Origin: Bdellovibrionales bacterium
GTDB taxonomy: Bacteria > Myxococcota > XYA12-FULL-58-9 > SYDY01
Reading direction: 5' to 3'
Length of the DNA stretch: 26,906 nucleotides
Assembly (NCBI GenBank): GCA_005801425.1
Contig: SYDY01000034.1
Span: 1 to 26,906, forward strand
Both the position numbers and the translations under genes were made by a program. Each line of letters starts with the position of its first letter. The first letter of the stretch is position 1. Below are positions 2,357 through 19,318 of this stretch, piece by piece. The notes below the pieces were generated by a model. The model worked only from the letters and a program-made list of their open reading frames with translations, searched no databases and was not told the DNA's origin.

Positions 2357-3424
2357 ATGGATCGACAGTACAATATCGGTGTCATTGGGGCGACGGGTAT
2401 TACAGGTCAGAAGATTGTACAGGCGCTGTGTGTGCGTGGTTATTCGGTGTTGATAGGGGGACGTGACCACAAAGCATTGCAACGCATGTCCTCTGTATTC
2501 GGGGATGCTTGCGTGGCACAACCTGTGGATTTAACATCCCGCGAAAGTTTGTTGGATTTTCTGCAACGTGTTCCTGTGGTGATCCAATGCGTTGGGCCGT
2601 TTGTGCGATGGGGACTTCCTATCGTTGATGCTGCGATCGAAGCAAAAACACACGTGGTCGATATTTCGGGGGAACAGGCCTATGCACTCGCATGCATGCA
2701 AAACTTTCATACGCTGGCGCTTGATGCGGGCGTTTGTATTGTGAATGGTGCCGCCGTCGAAGGGGGTGTCGCCGATGCGTTGGCTACGCAGATCTGTAAA
2801 AATCGAAAATTGCGTCCACGTAATATCACGGTGTTGACCAAAATGCGTGGTGTTCTGCCAAGCCCCGCAAGTATCGCATCGTTTGCTGGTGTTCTTCATG
2901 GACCGATGTGGGATCTTCGCGGTGGGATACTTCAGGAAAAAGAATTTGGTTATCGTCAAGAGCGATGCCGAGGGCCCGAGGGCAAACGTCGGCGTGGTTT
3001 GTGGATCCCAGGTATTGAAACGATATTGATTTCACGTCATTTGCCTGCACGCAATGTGGGGTCGTTTTTTGATGTCAGTGGTTTTCCTCGTGTGTTGTTG
3101 GCTAAATTCGCTGCACGGCTGCTTCACGATTCTCCTGAGCGCGTGATTGAAATACTTGCGAAATTGATGCCACGCTGGTTGCCTGTGGGGGCGCCTTCTT
3201 TTTCCATCACAGTAACCGTCGAAGGGGATCTTGAAACGACACCCGGAAAATGCGCATCACGCAGTGAAACCCTTGTGGGTTTAGATCCCTACGTGGCTAC
3301 CGCACGCATTGCGATGACAGTGGCTGAACATCTTTGCCAGAAGGGTGAAGCAGAATCACACGGGATTGTGTCGCCCGCTATGGTTGTTTCAGCGGAAGCG
3401 CTTGTGGCGGCTGCGCTTTCATAG
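2357..3424 (+). CDS. saccharopine dehydrogenase-like NAD(P)-binding oxidoreductase
   Basis: The 355-residue protein opens with a Rossmann nucleotide-binding motif (IGVIGATGITGQ, residues about 6-17), then a GGRD at the end of the second strand, as in the saccharopine dehydrogenase NADP-binding / trans-acting enoyl reductase superfamily. The 'VVIQCVGPFVRWGLPIVDAAIEAKTHVVDISGE' region (given here only to identify it; residues about 74-106) is the typical continuation: a cofactor-proximal CVGPF loop, then the H-x-V-D-x-S/T-G-E motif. The start is the first ATG after the divergent promoter gap, with only a weak AGG upstream. Family members act in lysine metabolism, lipid modification or as uncharacterised reductases, and the substrate cannot be read here. 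Its last 47 bases overlap the end of the convergent minus-strand gene, an unusually long convergent overlap. Family assignment is good and specific function unknown. Confidence 0.82.
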   Translation: MDRQYNIGVIGATGITGQKIVQALCVRGYSVLIGGRDHKALQRMSSVFGDACVAQPVDLTSRESLLDFLQRVPVVIQCVGPFVRWGLPIVDAAIEAKTHVVDISGEQAYALACMQNFHTLALDAGVCIVNGAAVEGGVADALATQICKNRKLRPRNITVLTKMRGVLPSPASIASFAGVLHGPMWDLRGGILQEKEFGYRQERCRGPEGKRRRGLWIPGIETILISRHLPARNVGSFFDVSGFPRVLLAKFAARLLHDSPERVIEILAKLMPRWLPVGAPSFSITVTVEGDLETTPGKCASRSETLVGLDPYVATARIAMTVAEHLCQKGEAESHGIVSPAMVVSAEALVAAALS

Positions 3425-3893
3425 AAGTTTGATACTTCGCATCGGCAGCCCATGCTGCAGTCAAATACTTAGAGAAATATTTTTCTTCACTAGGGGCAAG
3501 TAGTGCAGAAATTTGAGACTCTGCAGGTATGGCGCACCATGATGGATGGCTGACGCACAACATGCACCATGCTTCTGTGGCCGTACGTTGCAATCCATGC
3601 CATGAATCATGGTTTGCACCGGCAATCACTGTGGGGAGGCTGCTCAGCTCCATTCGTGAGTTACCGAAAAATGCGCCTTGGTGTCCGATGGTCGCTGTTT
3701 TTAATTCAAATCTTACGGTGATATTTTTCTGGGCGTTGGGAAATTCAGCAGTCGTTTCCAAGGTGAAATGGTCTGGTTTTCGAAAGATACGCCCATTCCA
3801 TTGGGGCTTGTCTTGAACCATGTTGGCACGACTGCTCACGGCGGCCATGATGCTTTGTCGATCTTCGTCTTTATTTCGTATGATGATGCTCAT
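3378..3893 (-). CDS. uncharacterised protein, short paralogue of the 398-residue gene at 4668-5864
   Basis: This 171-residue soluble protein belongs to no family I recognise. Its residues about 25-120 align with the N-terminal part of the upstream 398-residue protein: QW-N/D, then LETTAEFP/LEVTTRLP, NITV-R/K-F/L-x-LK, E-x-x-P-x-I-A-G, LQ-x-A/T-A-x-x-AW-x-LCV, and WCA-x-P. It therefore looks like a duplicated first domain without the second half. The start ATG at 3893 follows AAAGGAAACACA, a reasonable ribosome-binding site. It is third in the minus-strand operon, 23 bases after the DJ-1/PfpI gene. The 3' end overlaps the convergent oxidoreductase by 47 bases. No signal peptide or membrane segment is visible. 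Real gene likely, function unknown. Confidence 0.72.
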   Translation of the reverse strand: MSIIIRNKDEDRQSIMAAVSSRANMVQDKPQWNGRIFRKPDHFTLETTAEFPNAQKNITVRFELKTATIGHQGAFFGNSRMELSSLPTVIAGANHDSWHGLQRTATEAWCMLCVSHPSWCAIPAESQISALLAPSEEKYFSKYLTAAWAADAKYQTSMKAQPPQALPLKQP

Positions 3894-4667: not shown

Positions 4668-5864
4668 CTATGCCTCTAAATGCGCAATAAATTTCCCACT
4701 TAACATGGGATGTGTGATCGACAAACGTTTGATTCTCCCAAAGGCATCTGCAAATTCTTCGGGCTTAAGTGTTGGGGTTTCTGTCGCTTCGCTTGCACGC
4801 TCAATGCTTGCTTTGACCGCACTGCCATCGACATTTTGTAATAAATAATACGTTGCGCCCAAGGATGGGCAGCATGGACAGCGTGTTCGTATATCTTGCA
4901 TGACATCCCATACATTACGACTGGCCCCCACATGGAGTGCGACGCGATGCATGCCATCACGGCTTGGGAGCATGAGCGTTGCTCCACCACTTGCAGCCCA
5001 TTGGTCTTGATGTTCAAAATCAATGTCTCTTAATTTTGTGCCACCGGAGTTTCCGTACCAATGATGTGTGGGACGCGTAAACGAAGCATTGATTACAGAC
5101 GCCCATGCATCGTCAGAAACGTCGTTGTAGATCCAATGTGATCTTTCTATATTGCGTGTGATGTGTACGTTGCTTTGCGCTGCGATGATATCAAGCAACT
5201 GATTGGTCTCAGTGGCAACTTCTGCAACGGGTGCGGTGAGAAATACCATAGGTGTATATCGTATAAATCCTGACCAAAGACCGATGTGTTGGGCAGTCGC
5301 TTCCATGACATCAGTGGAAATAGAATGGTAAGGCATGGGCACTGTGAGATGGGCAGTATAGATCTGATCAACAAGCCATGCTGCATTTCTGCGTTGGTGT
5401 GAAGACCAGCTTTGGATCCCAAATGTATGCGTTGCTTGGATATCGAAATTATCATCTGGAATACGCGTTATATCTTGGAGGATGGAGAGCGCAGGCGGTG
5501 CACACCACTGCATGCGTGTGACACAGAGATCAAGCCATGCATCAAGCGCCACGGCTTGCAATGTGTTGCGCATTGCAGGATTTGTTTCACCTGCAATAAT
5601 TTCTGGAACTGTTTCAAGCATGGCCCGTGTTAGTTTGGATGAATTTTCTCGGTCGACAACGGGAGCGCGTTTTAATGTCAGCTTCACCGTGATATTGATT
5701 GCAGGATCTGGAAGGCGTGTTGTGACTTCGAGGCCGAAGCGGGAATTACCTCTTGGGGTGTAGTTGTCCCATTGGGATTGATGATTGTATGTGATCTGAT
5801 GACGTGCGATGGCGTCGGCGATGGGCTGTCGGTATGTGTTTGTTATGTTTATAAAAGAACTCAT
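4668..5864 (-). CDS. uncharacterised 398-residue protein, first gene of a DJ-1/PfpI operon
   Basis: I do not recognise the family. The protein is soluble, with no signal peptide or long hydrophobic stretch. Residues about 30-125 are paralogous to the 171-residue product at 3378-3893 (shared NITVKLTLK, ETVPEIIAGE, LQAVALDAWLDLCV and WCAPP). The remaining 270 residues have no counterpart there and include a compact cysteine cluster, CPCC, at 329-332, which could bind metal or form a disulfide. The protein is rich in Trp and His. The start at 5864 is the first ATG of the frame after the divergent gap to mutS; the upstream bases give little Shine-Dalgarno support. The next gene starts one base past this stop. 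It could equally be a phage- or effector-type protein, but nothing in the sequence shows this. Confidence 0.72.
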   Translation of the reverse strand: MSSFINITNTYRQPIADAIARHQITYNHQSQWDNYTPRGNSRFGLEVTTRLPDPAINITVKLTLKRAPVVDRENSSKLTRAMLETVPEIIAGETNPAMRNTLQAVALDAWLDLCVTRMQWCAPPALSILQDITRIPDDNFDIQATHTFGIQSWSSHQRRNAAWLVDQIYTAHLTVPMPYHSISTDVMEATAQHIGLWSGFIRYTPMVFLTAPVAEVATETNQLLDIIAAQSNVHITRNIERSHWIYNDVSDDAWASVINASFTRPTHHWYGNSGGTKLRDIDFEHQDQWAASGGATLMLPSRDGMHRVALHVGASRNVWDVMQDIRTRCPCCPSLGATYYLLQNVDGSAVKASIERASEATETPTLKPEEFADAFGRIKRLSITHPMLSGKFIAHLEA

Positions 5865-14424: not shown

Positions 14425-14523
14425 ATTTATATGCGACGGTAAATAATGAATGAAATAAACCCACATACACCTTATTTCGCTTGACGATTTCTCACAGACA
14501 TGGAGAGACTCATCTCTTTGCTA

Positions 14524-14537
14524 ACGTTGTACAACGT
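14524..14537. promoter_or_regulatory. perfect 14-bp palindrome before the ATP-grasp pair
   Basis: ACGTTGTACAACGT is a perfect dyad 20 bases upstream of the first ATP-grasp start. Just upstream, AGAGA (14504-14508) and TCTCT (14513-14517) form a small second dyad, and a lone TTGACG lies at 14481-14486 without a good -10. The position suits an operator bound by a dimeric repressor, but no regulator gene is nearby. Confidence 0.4.
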
Positions 14538-14557
14538 AGGTCTATTTGGAGCATGTT

Positions 14558-16384
14558 ATGAGCGCCACCAAAACTGAATCGCTGCAGTCAATCCACCCAA
14601 GCACCGGATGGAGGTTACCGCCTCCAGACGATCGATCGGGTTGGTTCGCTGTCGTCAATGGTTGTTGGGCCGAACACAATAAAGATTTGATGGATGTGCT
14701 CGATGGTGCTCCTTCTTACCCGAGCCGTGACTGGCTTGTGCAGTCGCTTCATGCTGGCCTGCTCGCATGCCGTGGCACTGCACCAACGCTCCAAATCGGT
14801 TTGTTTTCGAGCAATATTCCGCCAGAAATAGACCAACAGGTGCTGACTCTTACGTCTGATTTGCATACCGTTTGGGCCGCAAAGCATGGCATGAATGCTG
14901 CTCTGCCTGCCAATGTCCGTCAGTCATGGGTGCCTGTGTGTTATGTAGATGGCTTAGAAGGTGTTGATGTTTCGCGGGCATGGGTGATTGCACACGAAAA
15001 AATGCCAGAGGGCTTGGGTGCGTTGGTGACGCTTTCGCGTGAGGAAGCCGATCCTGCGCGATTGCGTGATTTATCCGTTTCACGTTGGCCTGAAAAAATT
15101 GTTGTGTTGTCGAGAGACGGCGATGTTCGCCCGAATACAGCTTCGTGTGCCGATGCGTTGATGGGAGTTCCGGCTGTGGTCGGCAGCATCCAGGCGCTGC
15201 GCGATGTACGGTTTGCCGATTGGTCAGGGGCCATCAATGGGTGCTGGTTGCCGGCACGCACGTCTGCCCATGATGGTGTCTGGGCAGAGCAGAGTGGGTT
15301 GCCGTCGTTTGGCTTTGACACGGATCTCTTTCAAGAATGGGGTACGAAAGAGGGGAATCATAAATTATTCCGTCTTGCCGGTGTGCCTCGTCCCGAAGGG
15401 ACTGAAGATCTTGTCCATACACAGGATGCTTTGCTTGACGCCATCGATGCCTTTATCCTTCGAACCGGTTCGTTCAAAGTGGTGGCCAAGGCCAGCGACA
15501 ATGCTTCGGGTATGGGCAATGCCATGCTTGATTTTTCACCCTTGAAACCCCTGTTTGACGACAAAGACACAATGCCAGCAATGCGCAAAGACGCCATGCT
15601 GAGATGTTTGTGCGAAAATGCGCACAAAAATTACGTAGCAGGCGATGCAAAAGAGAACCTGACGTTTGATGATTACGTACGCAATATCGTTGCGCGTGGT
15701 GGTGTGGTGCTTGAAGCATTTATTCATGCTCCCGTTGGCGGACGAACGTACGACGCAAGTGTGCAGTTTATTGTGTCTCCCATAGGTTCAGGGCGTACGT
15801 CGGATGTTGTGGGCATTCATAAACCGGTGGTGACCGAATCAGGTGTGTACAACGGTGCATTTGCGCCACCGCCGCAATATCTCGAAGAAATGCTGCGTGA
15901 GATTGGCCAAAAAGTGGGCGTGTTTTTGCATGAAAAAGGTCTTGCGGGTCCTATGGGCATCGATGTCTTCATCCAAGAAGGACCGATGGGAATCGACGGC
16001 AAACCCTCTTTTGTGAATGCCTTCTGCGTGGATGCCAATTTGCGCCAACCCGGCACGCTTCATGGATTGCATCTTAGATCGATCACGGAGCAGGTCCTTG
16101 GGATCCCACTGTCGAGTACCAGCACAGACAGCTATCATCCTCCGATAGGTTTAACACGCGCAGACATTGTGGCGGTGGCAGAGTCTGATGCGTTTCGTTT
16201 CAATCCTGAAACAGGAACGGGTGTTTCCTTGCACTTGGTGAGCAACGTGGATCCCTATAATAAACTAGGATTTTCATGTTTGGCACCTGCGGATCTTACC
16301 TCACAGACCGAACCCTTCGGGCCTGCGCGTGATTTAGAAATACGATTCAAAAAGGCGTTGGAAGACCGTGCAGGGGTTTCGTAA
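14558..16384 (+). CDS. ATP-grasp peptide ligase-like protein A (PGM1 family, tandem)
   Basis: This 608-residue protein starts at ATG 14558, six bases after GGAG. From about residue 240 it reads like the pre-ATP-grasp/ATP-grasp enzymes related to the pheganomycin peptide ligase PGM1: SGLPSFG, GTKEGNHKLF (Gly262-Lys264), LAGVPRPEGTE, a nucleotide-binding VVAKAS (Lys311), a glycine loop DNASGMGNAMLDF, a hinge VVLEAFIH (Glu386), metal-site GIDVF (Asp469) and V-D-A-N-L-R (Asp492, Asn494, Arg496). The last 80 residues match the PGM1 C-terminal domain: Y-H-P-P-x-x-L-x-x-x-D-I, F-R-F-N-P-E-T-G-T-G, then N-K-L-G-x-S-C. The N-terminal 240 residues are unlike anything I can name. I infer an ATP-dependent carboxylate-amine (peptide-bond type) ligase, cytoplasmic, substrate unknown. 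The next gene is its paralogue, overlapping by one base. Confidence 0.8.
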   Translation: MSATKTESLQSIHPSTGWRLPPPDDRSGWFAVVNGCWAEHNKDLMDVLDGAPSYPSRDWLVQSLHAGLLACRGTAPTLQIGLFSSNIPPEIDQQVLTLTSDLHTVWAAKHGMNAALPANVRQSWVPVCYVDGLEGVDVSRAWVIAHEKMPEGLGALVTLSREEADPARLRDLSVSRWPEKIVVLSRDGDVRPNTASCADALMGVPAVVGSIQALRDVRFADWSGAINGCWLPARTSAHDGVWAEQSGLPSFGFDTDLFQEWGTKEGNHKLFRLAGVPRPEGTEDLVHTQDALLDAIDAFILRTGSFKVVAKASDNASGMGNAMLDFSPLKPLFDDKDTMPAMRKDAMLRCLCENAHKNYVAGDAKENLTFDDYVRNIVARGGVVLEAFIHAPVGGRTYDASVQFIVSPIGSGRTSDVVGIHKPVVTESGVYNGAFAPPPQYLEEMLREIGQKVGVFLHEKGLAGPMGIDVFIQEGPMGIDGKPSFVNAFCVDANLRQPGTLHGLHLRSITEQVLGIPLSSTSTDSYHPPIGLTRADIVAVAESDAFRFNPETGTGVSLHLVSNVDPYNKLGFSCLAPADLTSQTEPFGPARDLEIRFKKALEDRAGVS

Positions 16385-18198
16385 TGAGTACCACACCTGT
16401 CGTGTCAAACCACGGATTGCGACTCCCCGTGCCTGGAGAAGCATCTGGATTTTTTGCGGTGGACAATGGCTGCCAGGGATCTCATAACATTGAATTGATC
16501 AATCGGATCTCCGGCATTAAGGCGTATGGTGCGCGCGAGTGGGTTGGATGGGCTGTGGGTGCCGGTTTGCGTGCATGCCGCGATGTGGCGCCTGTGCTTC
16601 AAATTGGACTCCTCCCTTGCGATGCACCTCCTGCAATGGATCAACAGGCACTGCGTCTTACGTCTGATCTGCATGGGATGTGGGCGAGTAAGCATGATGT
16701 GAGTGCGCGCGTTCCTGATAAAGTGCGGCAATCGTGGGTGCCTGTGTGTTATGTCCCGAATTTGGATGGCATCGATATTTCGCGCGCATGGGTGATTGCA
16801 CACGAAAAAATACCGGCCGATATGCACGCTCTGGCGACACTTGCACGTGAAGACGCGGATCCTGCGAGATTGCGCGACTTGGCGCTTTCAAGTTGGCCTG
16901 ACAAAATCGTTGTTGTGGAAAAAAAAGGCGATAACCTCCCTAATATAGGTGCATGTGCTCATGCGCTGATGGCCATTCCAGCGGTCGTGCAAAGCATCCA
17001 TGCTTTGCACGATGTGTGTTTTAAGGGTTGGACCGGCTCCGTAGAGGGATGCTGGTGGCCTTTGCGTGCATCGACGGAAGATTTTTCATGGGGAAAATCG
17101 TTTGGATTGCCTGTGCTGGGGTCTCAACCCGCGTCGTTTGCAACATGGGGAACCAAGCAAGGGAATCATAAGCTGTTTGAATCGGCTGGTATTCCGCGTC
17201 CCCTAGGGACTGAAGAACCGATGCACACGCAGGATGCGTTGCTTGGCGCCATTGACCTATTCATGCGTCAACATGATGTTTTCAAATTGGTTGTGAAGGC
17301 ATGTGACAGTGCGTCAGGGATGGGCAATGCCACGCTTGATTTTTCAAGCTTGAAAGCATTGTTGTCCGATGAGCTCATAACGCCTGCAGCGCGCAAGGAA
17401 GCCATGCTGGCATGCTTGCGAACGAATGCCACCAAGAATTTTGCGCCAGGCGATGCCGATCATGTGACGTTTGGTGATTACGTGCGCAATATTGTCGAAA
17501 AAGGCGGTGTGGTGCTTGAAGCATTCATTCATGCTCCCGAAGGCGGACGAACCTATGATGCCAGCGTGCAGTTCGTGGTGTTGCCTCAAGGTTCAGAAAA
17601 ACCCGTGGATGTGGTGGCCGTCCATAAACCGGTGGTGAGTGCCGATGGCGTGTATGGTGGGGCGCAGTCACCATCGCCTCAATACATTGTCGAGCGTTTG
17701 CAGGAGATTGGACAAAAAGCGGGCGCGTTTCTGTATTCCCAAGGCCTTTCAGGTCCTATGGGGATCGATGTGTTTGTCAAAGAGGGTCCGCTTGGACCTG
17801 ATGGCATTCCCGTTTTTGCAGAGCTCTATTGCGTGGATGCCAATTTACGTCTTCCCGGCACGTTTCCTGCGCTTCGTCTTAAAACGATGATGGAGCAGGT
17901 GTTGGATAGAAAACTATCAAGCACAAGCACCGAGGGTTACCATCCTCCTGCAACTCTTACTTTACGTGATATCATGACTGTCGTGGAATCTGACGCGTTT
18001 CGATTTGATCCGAAAACAGGGACGGGTGTTGTGCTACACATGGTGGGCCTCGTCGAAAGTCACAACAAACTCGGCGTGTCGTGTTTTGCACCCATGGACC
18101 ATGCGTCACAGGCTGAACCATTTGGACCTGCGGTTGCATTGGAAACAAAGTTCAAACAGGCGTTAACCGATCTTGCGATCGCAAAAGCATCCGCTTGA
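16384..18198 (+). CDS. ATP-grasp peptide ligase-like protein B (PGM1 family, tandem paralogue)
   Basis: This 604-residue paralogue of protein A shares well over half its residues across the full length, so the pair arose by gene duplication. ATG 16384 shares its A with the TAA of the upstream gene, indicating translational coupling. The same features are intact: GTKQGNHKLF (Gly256-Lys258), AGIPRPLGTE, LVVKAC (Lys305), DSASGMGNATLDF, VVLEAFIHAPEGGRTYDASVQF (Glu379), GIDVF (Asp462), C-V-D-A-N-L-R (Asp485, Asn487, Arg489), and the PGM1-type C-terminal block FRFDPKTGTGVVLH. Both copies thus look catalytically competent. Two ligases could act as a heteromer or add successive units to one product. 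No acceptor peptide, transporter or regulator gene adjoins; prfB follows after 33 bases and is unlikely to be functionally tied. Confidence 0.8.
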   Translation: MSTTPVVSNHGLRLPVPGEASGFFAVDNGCQGSHNIELINRISGIKAYGAREWVGWAVGAGLRACRDVAPVLQIGLLPCDAPPAMDQQALRLTSDLHGMWASKHDVSARVPDKVRQSWVPVCYVPNLDGIDISRAWVIAHEKIPADMHALATLAREDADPARLRDLALSSWPDKIVVVEKKGDNLPNIGACAHALMAIPAVVQSIHALHDVCFKGWTGSVEGCWWPLRASTEDFSWGKSFGLPVLGSQPASFATWGTKQGNHKLFESAGIPRPLGTEEPMHTQDALLGAIDLFMRQHDVFKLVVKACDSASGMGNATLDFSSLKALLSDELITPAARKEAMLACLRTNATKNFAPGDADHVTFGDYVRNIVEKGGVVLEAFIHAPEGGRTYDASVQFVVLPQGSEKPVDVVAVHKPVVSADGVYGGAQSPSPQYIVERLQEIGQKAGAFLYSQGLSGPMGIDVFVKEGPLGPDGIPVFAELYCVDANLRLPGTFPALRLKTMMEQVLDRKLSSTSTEGYHPPATLTLRDIMTVVESDAFRFDPKTGTGVVLHMVGLVESHNKLGVSCFAPMDHASQAEPFGPAVALETKFKQALTDLAIAKASA

Positions 18199-18231
18199 CT
18201 CTCGCTGTCTACCTGATAACCAGCGTCAATC

Positions 18232-19318
18232 ATGACTGAACGAAAAGCTGTGCAACAAGACCTGACGTCACGGATGTCCCTTCTACGGAGGCATCTTTGA
18301 CATCGCCAACCATCTTAATCGTCTTGAAGAATTAAACAGACGCTCGGAAGATCCTGATCTTTGGACCGACGCGGAAGCCGCAGCAGCGGTGCAGCGCGAA
18401 AAAAGCCAACTTGAAAAAATTACAGGGACGTTTGGTCGCCTTGAAACGACGGTGAACGATCTTGCGGACACGATCGCATTGGCCGAAGAAGATCCTGACT
18501 TTGCACGCGAAGTGGATGCCGAATTTGCCAAGGCCGAGAAGGCCGTCAGCGAACTTGAATTGCAGCGTATGCTCGGTGGCAAGTACGATGGCAACGACGC
18601 CATTGTGACGGTCAACGCGGGTGCAGGCGGCACCGAAAGCCAAGACTGGGCAGAGATGATCTTACGGATGCTCACCCGATGGTGTGAACGCCGTGGTTAC
18701 GAAATGACCATGATGGATCTGCAAGCGGGTGAAGAAGCAGGGATCAAAAGTGCCACCATTGAAGTGCGTGGCATGTATGCCTATGGCTATTTGCAGGCCG
18801 AAGCGGGTGTGCATCGCTTGGTGCGTATAAGTCCCTACGATTCGCAAAAACGGCGGCATACCTCATTTGCCTCGGTGGGTGTTGCCCCTTTGGTGGAAGA
18901 CGATGTGACAGTCGATATTCGCGATGAAGATCTGCGTGTGGACACCTATCGCGCAAGCGGTGCTGGCGGGCAGCACGTGAATAAAACCGATTCGGCTGTG
19001 CGTATGACCCATATTCCCACGGGTGTCGTGGTGGCATGCCAGGCTGAGCGCAGCCAACATAAAAATCGCGCCAAAGCCATGAAGATGCTTAAAGCGAAGC
19101 TGCTTGTGCTTGAGATTGAAAAGAAAGCGGCCGAAACAGCCTCTGTGGTGGGCGAAAAGAAAAAAATTGAGTGGGGCAGCCAGATCAGATCCTACGTGCT
19201 TCATCCCTATCGCATGGTGAAAGATCATCGAACGGATTATGAAGTGGGCAATACCGATGCAGTGCTTGATGGCGATTTGGACGGATTTGTTCAAGCCTAT
19301 TTGATGGCAACCACATAA
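18232..19318 (+). CDS. prfB: peptide chain release factor 2, made by programmed +1 frameshifting
   Basis: RF2 reads UGA and UAA and triggers peptide release. The gene is in two frames: ATG 18232 to CTT 18297 (22 codons, MTERKAVQQDLTSRMSLLRRHL), an in-frame TGA at 18298-18300, then reading resumes at GAC 18299 (DIANHLNRLEELNRRSED) to 19318, 361 residues in total (E. coli 365). The shift joins the natural L-x-R-H-L-D-x N-terminus, so the short upstream frame is real. The peptidyl-hydrolysis motif is AGGQ (GGQ at 245-247) and the stop-codon recognition motif is SPY (200-202) where E. coli has SPF. RRHTSFASV follows as usual. It starts 33 bases after the ATP-grasp pair; the ribosome-binding site is weak. 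Confidence 0.95.
18285..18301 (+). promoter_or_regulatory. prfB programmed +1 frameshift site with internal Shine-Dalgarno
   Basis: The sequence is ACGGAGG (18285-18291), CAT, then CTT TGA C (18295-18301). The internal Shine-Dalgarno sequence three bases before the CTT slip codon and the in-frame TGA followed by C are the classic autoregulatory layout: low RF2 lets the ribosome shift +1 and bypass the stop. Confidence 0.95.

Follow-up and report, generated by a model that had tools for sequence, protein, structure and literature searches.

Described ligases related to the pair

Few PGM1/BesA-type ligases have a known chemistry; such enzymes are of use in forming amide bonds to unusual amino acids. 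Two members with solved structures are compared here. BesA from Streptantibioticus cattleyicolor (PDB 8yi6) is an L-propargylglycine--L-glutamate ligase, and PDB entries 3wvq and 3wvr are, we take it, PGM1, the pheganomycin peptide ligase. Here we describe two adjacent genes, copies A and B, from a contig of an uncultured Bdellovibrionales bacterium (SYDY01000034.1; the whole stretch analysed, 26,906 nucleotides, is referred to as the window). BesA has the same order of ATP-grasp and C-terminal domains as the pair, at about 20% identity. Unlike the pair, it retains the motifs H-D-Q and E-I-N-L-R, and its N-terminal part is shorter by roughly 100 residues. PGM1 has the grasp fold in common with the pair (Z about 13.8), and copy B has a weak match to the PGM1_C domain. 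The pair differs from PGM1 in having neither pathway genes nor a precursor peptide, in its changed active-site letters and in being present as two copies.

Two further loci were also compared. A 542-aa ORF in MAG 3_bin.68 (L009), a distantly related genome within the phylum, was 27% identical to residues 226-569 of copy B. It is a canonical PGM1-related ligase which, unlike the pair, scored above the PF24923 and PGM1_C cut-offs. It has E-I-N-L-R and H-D-Q, and it is a single gene on a short contig with other neighbours. An Elusimicrobia MAG (L010) likewise has PGM1-like grasp domains in two genes that lie next to each other. However, its proteins (1113 and 1352 aa) are twice the size of those of the pair, retain H-D-Q and carry E-T-N-L-R and E-V-N-P-R. 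These adjacent proteins (L010:8954-16453) have signal-peptide-like N-termini, which is odd for ATP-using enzymes.

The gene pair

Both frames begin with ATG, and the last A of the copy A stop codon TAA (16382-16384) is the first base of the copy B start codon, giving a one-base overlap (TAATG). The original prediction of two intact, full-length paralogues of 608 and 604 residues with such an overlap was thus confirmed. The features of the pair and its flanks are listed in Table 1.

Table 1. Positions in the window of the ligase genes, their flanking gaps and their active-site motifs
Feature	Position	Strand	Description and evidence
Ligase copy A	14558..16384	+	608 aa, divergent PGM1/BesA-type ATP-grasp; ORF; pair aligned with canonical ligases by hhalign (prob 99.7)
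Ligase copy B	16384..18198	+	604 aa, paralogue of A; ORF, pairwise identity, overlap and hhalign
133-base gap, ybeY/copy A	14425..14557	+	GGAG 6 bases upstream of the copy A start codon
34-base gap, copy B/prfB leader frame	18199..18232	+	Sequence scan
Copy A ATP-binding lysine K311 and phosphate loop (glycine-rich, A-S-G-M-G-N)	15488..15520	+	K311, G318, G320, N321 at canonical positions
Copy B K305 and glycine-rich A-S-G-M-G-N loop	17296..17328	+	K305, G312, G314, N315 at canonical positions
Copy A H421-K422-P423, canonical H-D-Q	15818..15826	+	Alignment with canonical homologues
Copy B H414-K415-P416, canonical H-D-Q	17623..17631	+	Alignment with canonical homologues
Copy A D492-A-N-L-R496 (canonical E-I-N-L-R), with Asp at the Glu metal-ligand site	16031..16045	+	Alignment
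Copy B D485-A-N-L-R489, canonical E-I-N-L-R	17836..17850	+	Alignment

The two proteins were 60% identical over 589 aligned columns with a single gap. Identity was lowest in the first 60 residues (38%) and ranged between 50 and 72% elsewhere. Synonymous differences (pS 0.63) were well above nonsynonymous ones (pN 0.26), with Jukes-Cantor corrected values of 1.38 and 0.32 and a ratio of about 0.23, which indicates purifying selection on both copies since the duplication. The two frames are real genes and both have been maintained. No further copies were found in the 3.38-Mb genome. With a GC content of 0.524 and a GC3 of 0.49-0.50, the pair is similar to the neighbouring genes, and this comparison thus gave no compositional trace of recent horizontal import. 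A near-perfect inverted repeat of 13 pairs lies within the copy B coding sequence (16984-17013) and appeared terminator-like in the scan; the number of terminator-like sites in that scan was not above that in shuffled sequences.

Family assignment and predicted fold

None of the curated family cut-offs in Pfam or NCBIfam was reached by either copy. The best Pfam match of both was the IQCH-like ATP-grasp domain PF24923 (22.2 bits in A and 19.6 bits in B, cut-off 27), and the best NCBIfam name was the BesA model NF042917 (22.7 and 27.2 bits, cut-off 750). The relationship was supported by profile-profile comparison. We aligned the pair, using hhalign, with six canonical PGM1/BesA-type ligases: the ORF from the distant genome of the same phylum, BesA, and sequences from Gemmatirosa, Nonomuraea, Streptomyces and Robbsia. 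The match covered copy B residues 193-573 (prob 99.7, E 1.5e-26), and its score of 202 compared with 17.1 +/- 2.7 (maximum 23.5) in 30 column shuffles. Homology to the canonical ligases is therefore significant along both the grasp and the C-terminal domains. When a profile of the pair was searched against solved structures, BesA (8yi6) was the top sequence match (E 1.9e-4).

The C-terminal domain had been described as PGM1-like. The hhalign match, which reaches residue 573 of 604, bears this out, but by Pfam PGM1_C (PF18105) fell below its cut-off of 22.5 in copy B (16.3 bits) and had no match at E <= 1 in copy A.

The AlphaFold model, built from five sequences, was of low confidence (mean pLDDT 49, with the first 256 residues under 50). 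Its best fold matches were a Streptomyces ATP-grasp peptide ligase, BesA and 3wvq/3wvr; at this low model confidence the scores were Z 14.4 for 8ynd, 14.0 for 8yi6 and 13.8 for 3wvr. Many ATP-grasp enzymes matched the same low-confidence model at Z 10-14, as expected of a member of the superfamily. The peptide ligases outscored carbamoyl phosphate synthetase (CPSase) and D-Ala ligases slightly, CPSase being behind by about one Z unit. Even with a model of pLDDT 49, structural comparison placed PGM1-type enzymes at the top. Together with the profile-profile comparison this upholds the assignment of the pair to the PGM1-like ATP-grasp ligases, which was broadly right.

About 190-230 residues precede the aligned part. 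The stretch from residue 193 matched the tail of the canonical pre-ATP-grasp domain in hhalign. The N-terminal region alone, compared with canonical N-termini in the same way, scored 14.0, which is not above column shuffles (12.8 +/- 2.3). Its best local match (ELINRISGIKAYGAR / RELEKIPGVEHYEER) lay at the expected place, with a score again not above column shuffles. Folded alone, the region had a pLDDT of 32. The Pfam pre-ATP-grasp family PF18604 did not match the pair, but canonical members often miss the PF18604 cut-off too. Our guess is that the region is a pre-ATP-grasp domain with an insertion.

Active-site residues

In an alignment of both copies with seven canonical homologues, most of the catalytic residues were shared: K258 and K305 (the two lysines of the ATP site), the glycine-rich S-G-x-G-N loop, E379, S394, H414, D462, N487 and R489 (copy B numbering). 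The residues named beforehand (K311/305, E386/379, D469/462 and D-A-N-L-R at 492-496/485-489) were all found at those positions. Nevertheless, the claim that the ATP-grasp core had been kept holds only in part, since several positions invariant in all seven canonical sequences were changed, and changed identically, in A and B. Near the active site, both copies have D-A-N-L-R for E-x-N-x-R, H-K-P for H-D-Q, A-S for P-S and D-V for D-F; the canonical motifs H-D-Q and E-x-N-x-R, present in 7/7 canonical sequences, are absent as such from the pair.

The D-x-N-x-R triad had been listed as part of the kept ATP-grasp core. Because the first residue was Glu in all seven canonical homologues, D-x-N-x-R sets the pair apart from the family instead of marking it as a typical member. 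In ATP-grasp enzymes in general this Glu is a metal ligand. Asp at this site is a conservative change but, to our knowledge, a rare one. With Asp in place of the metal-ligand Glu and H-K-P in place of H-D-Q, activity of the canonical type is not assured, and the changes common to both copies suggest altered handling of metal or substrate. The simplest account of the alignment would be that the shared changes are older than the duplication. Taken with the missed cut-offs, they place the pair in a divergent subfamily.

Genomic context and distribution

The order of genes on the contig was mutS, a TIGR04552 gene, murJ, mazG (on the opposite strand), ybeY, the pair, prfB, lysS, a LolC-like gene, a LolD-like ABC ATPase gene and bamA. 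MazG, YbeY and TIGR04552 were named by family matches and the other neighbours by reading of their translations. We found no consensus sigma-70 promoter in the gap upstream of copy A, no terminator-like site in the gap downstream of copy B and no convincing small ORF in either. With no terminator-like site before the prfB leader, the pair and prfB may be transcribed together. The start of prfB (18233-18300) has the usual arrangement for the RF2 programmed frameshift, with a short leader frame that ends in CTTTGAC and is preceded by GGAGG.

The pair had been proposed to form a new peptide-modifying system. Its neighbours are housekeeping genes (mazG, ybeY, prfB, lysS, the lolCD-like genes and bamA), and neither a precursor peptide nor a tailoring enzyme or exporter was seen beside it, so that such a system is unsupported by context, although an unlinked partner may exist. 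The pair had no PADLOC defence match and no phage-family match, and no RNA families were found in the window.

In one genome of the same order (G001) ybeY and prfB adjoin, with about 230 bases and no ligase gene between them, and in two further genomes (G002 and G007) different ORFs lie between these genes. The pair was not found in other genomes of the order. The simplest reading is that the lineage acquired it at a variable site within a row of housekeeping genes.

Searching for the pair elsewhere, as had been proposed, did not yield a second genome with it. A profile of the pair, run against 195 genomes of the phylum, recovered only its own two genes and the one distant canonical ligase, and PF24923 recovered only that ligase from 193 genomes. 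Nothing was found in 198 genomes of the Elusimicrobia phylum, where the search had no positive control. Close homologues were likewise not detected in the genome collection, in two scans with few, strict peptide patterns that test absence weakly. Viral contigs (three scans) and phages gave no match, and plasmids gave distant canonical ligases only. Since the search outside the phylum was thin and pattern-based, we make no claim that this genome alone has the subfamily.

Proposed function and alternatives

We consider it likely that A and B are paralogous carboxylate-amine ligases of the ATP-grasp type, from a divergent PGM1/BesA branch, with amide formation as the predicted activity. By homology, each would bind Mg-ATP in the grasp fold. 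A carboxylate would then be activated to an acyl phosphate and joined to an amine through an amide bond, as in the family. The TAATG overlap suggests that the copies are probably co-expressed and translationally coupled. Their substrates would most likely be small and related, an unusual amino acid and a peptide for example, and the two enzymes would work on them either consecutively or in parallel. A more specific version, in which the pair is a new ligase subfamily with an altered metal and substrate site and, working as a coupled pair, builds a peptide or amino-acid conjugate, the product of one enzyme being the substrate of the other, is doubtful. A peptide product has no support from partner genes.

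The overlap, which suggests coupled and roughly equal synthesis, and the purifying selection on both copies would also suit an obligate heteromer, a two-component ligase in which each subunit provides a different site or substrate. We regard this as unlikely. Both proteins share their catalytic residues as well as their unusual changes, leaving no visible split into a catalytic and a non-catalytic subunit; the searches found no other genome with the pair in which co-conservation could be seen, and we know of no heteromeric PGM1-type ligase. The identical set of catalytic letters is what would be expected if the duplication had brought little functional difference and the second copy served for dosage or was redundant. 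Such a role is very improbable, as the copies differ at 40% of their amino acids, synonymous sites have diverged strongly and the corrected ratio is about 0.23, all of which points to long retention of both copies.

The pair might instead have been repurposed and no longer form amide bonds; it could, for instance, be a regulator that binds ATP, or a ligase of a different bond. The joint loss of H-D-Q and of the Glu ligand, with invariant positions changed alike in both copies, and the housekeeping gene setting are in keeping with this. The remaining catalytic residues are kept, however, and Glu to Asp is conservative at a metal site, so we think repurposing quite unlikely. Amide-forming ligases remain our preferred reading. 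The pair is real, a diverged and duplicated variant within a known family, and it stays a lead. It may yield a ligase of new specificity, and a retained duplicate pair with a common non-canonical active site would show the range over which the family drifts under selection.

Other features of the window

On either side of a DJ-1/PfpI-like gene lie the frames of two paralogous proteins that match no known family (3381-3893 and 4671-5864, both on the minus strand; 31% identity, E 3.8e-13); the genome has no further copies of them. A large surface protein with Ig-like repeats is encoded at 59-2521 on the minus strand. Its end, made up of a Cys-containing stretch, a hydrophobic segment and RRK, resembles a MYXO-CTERM sorting tail.
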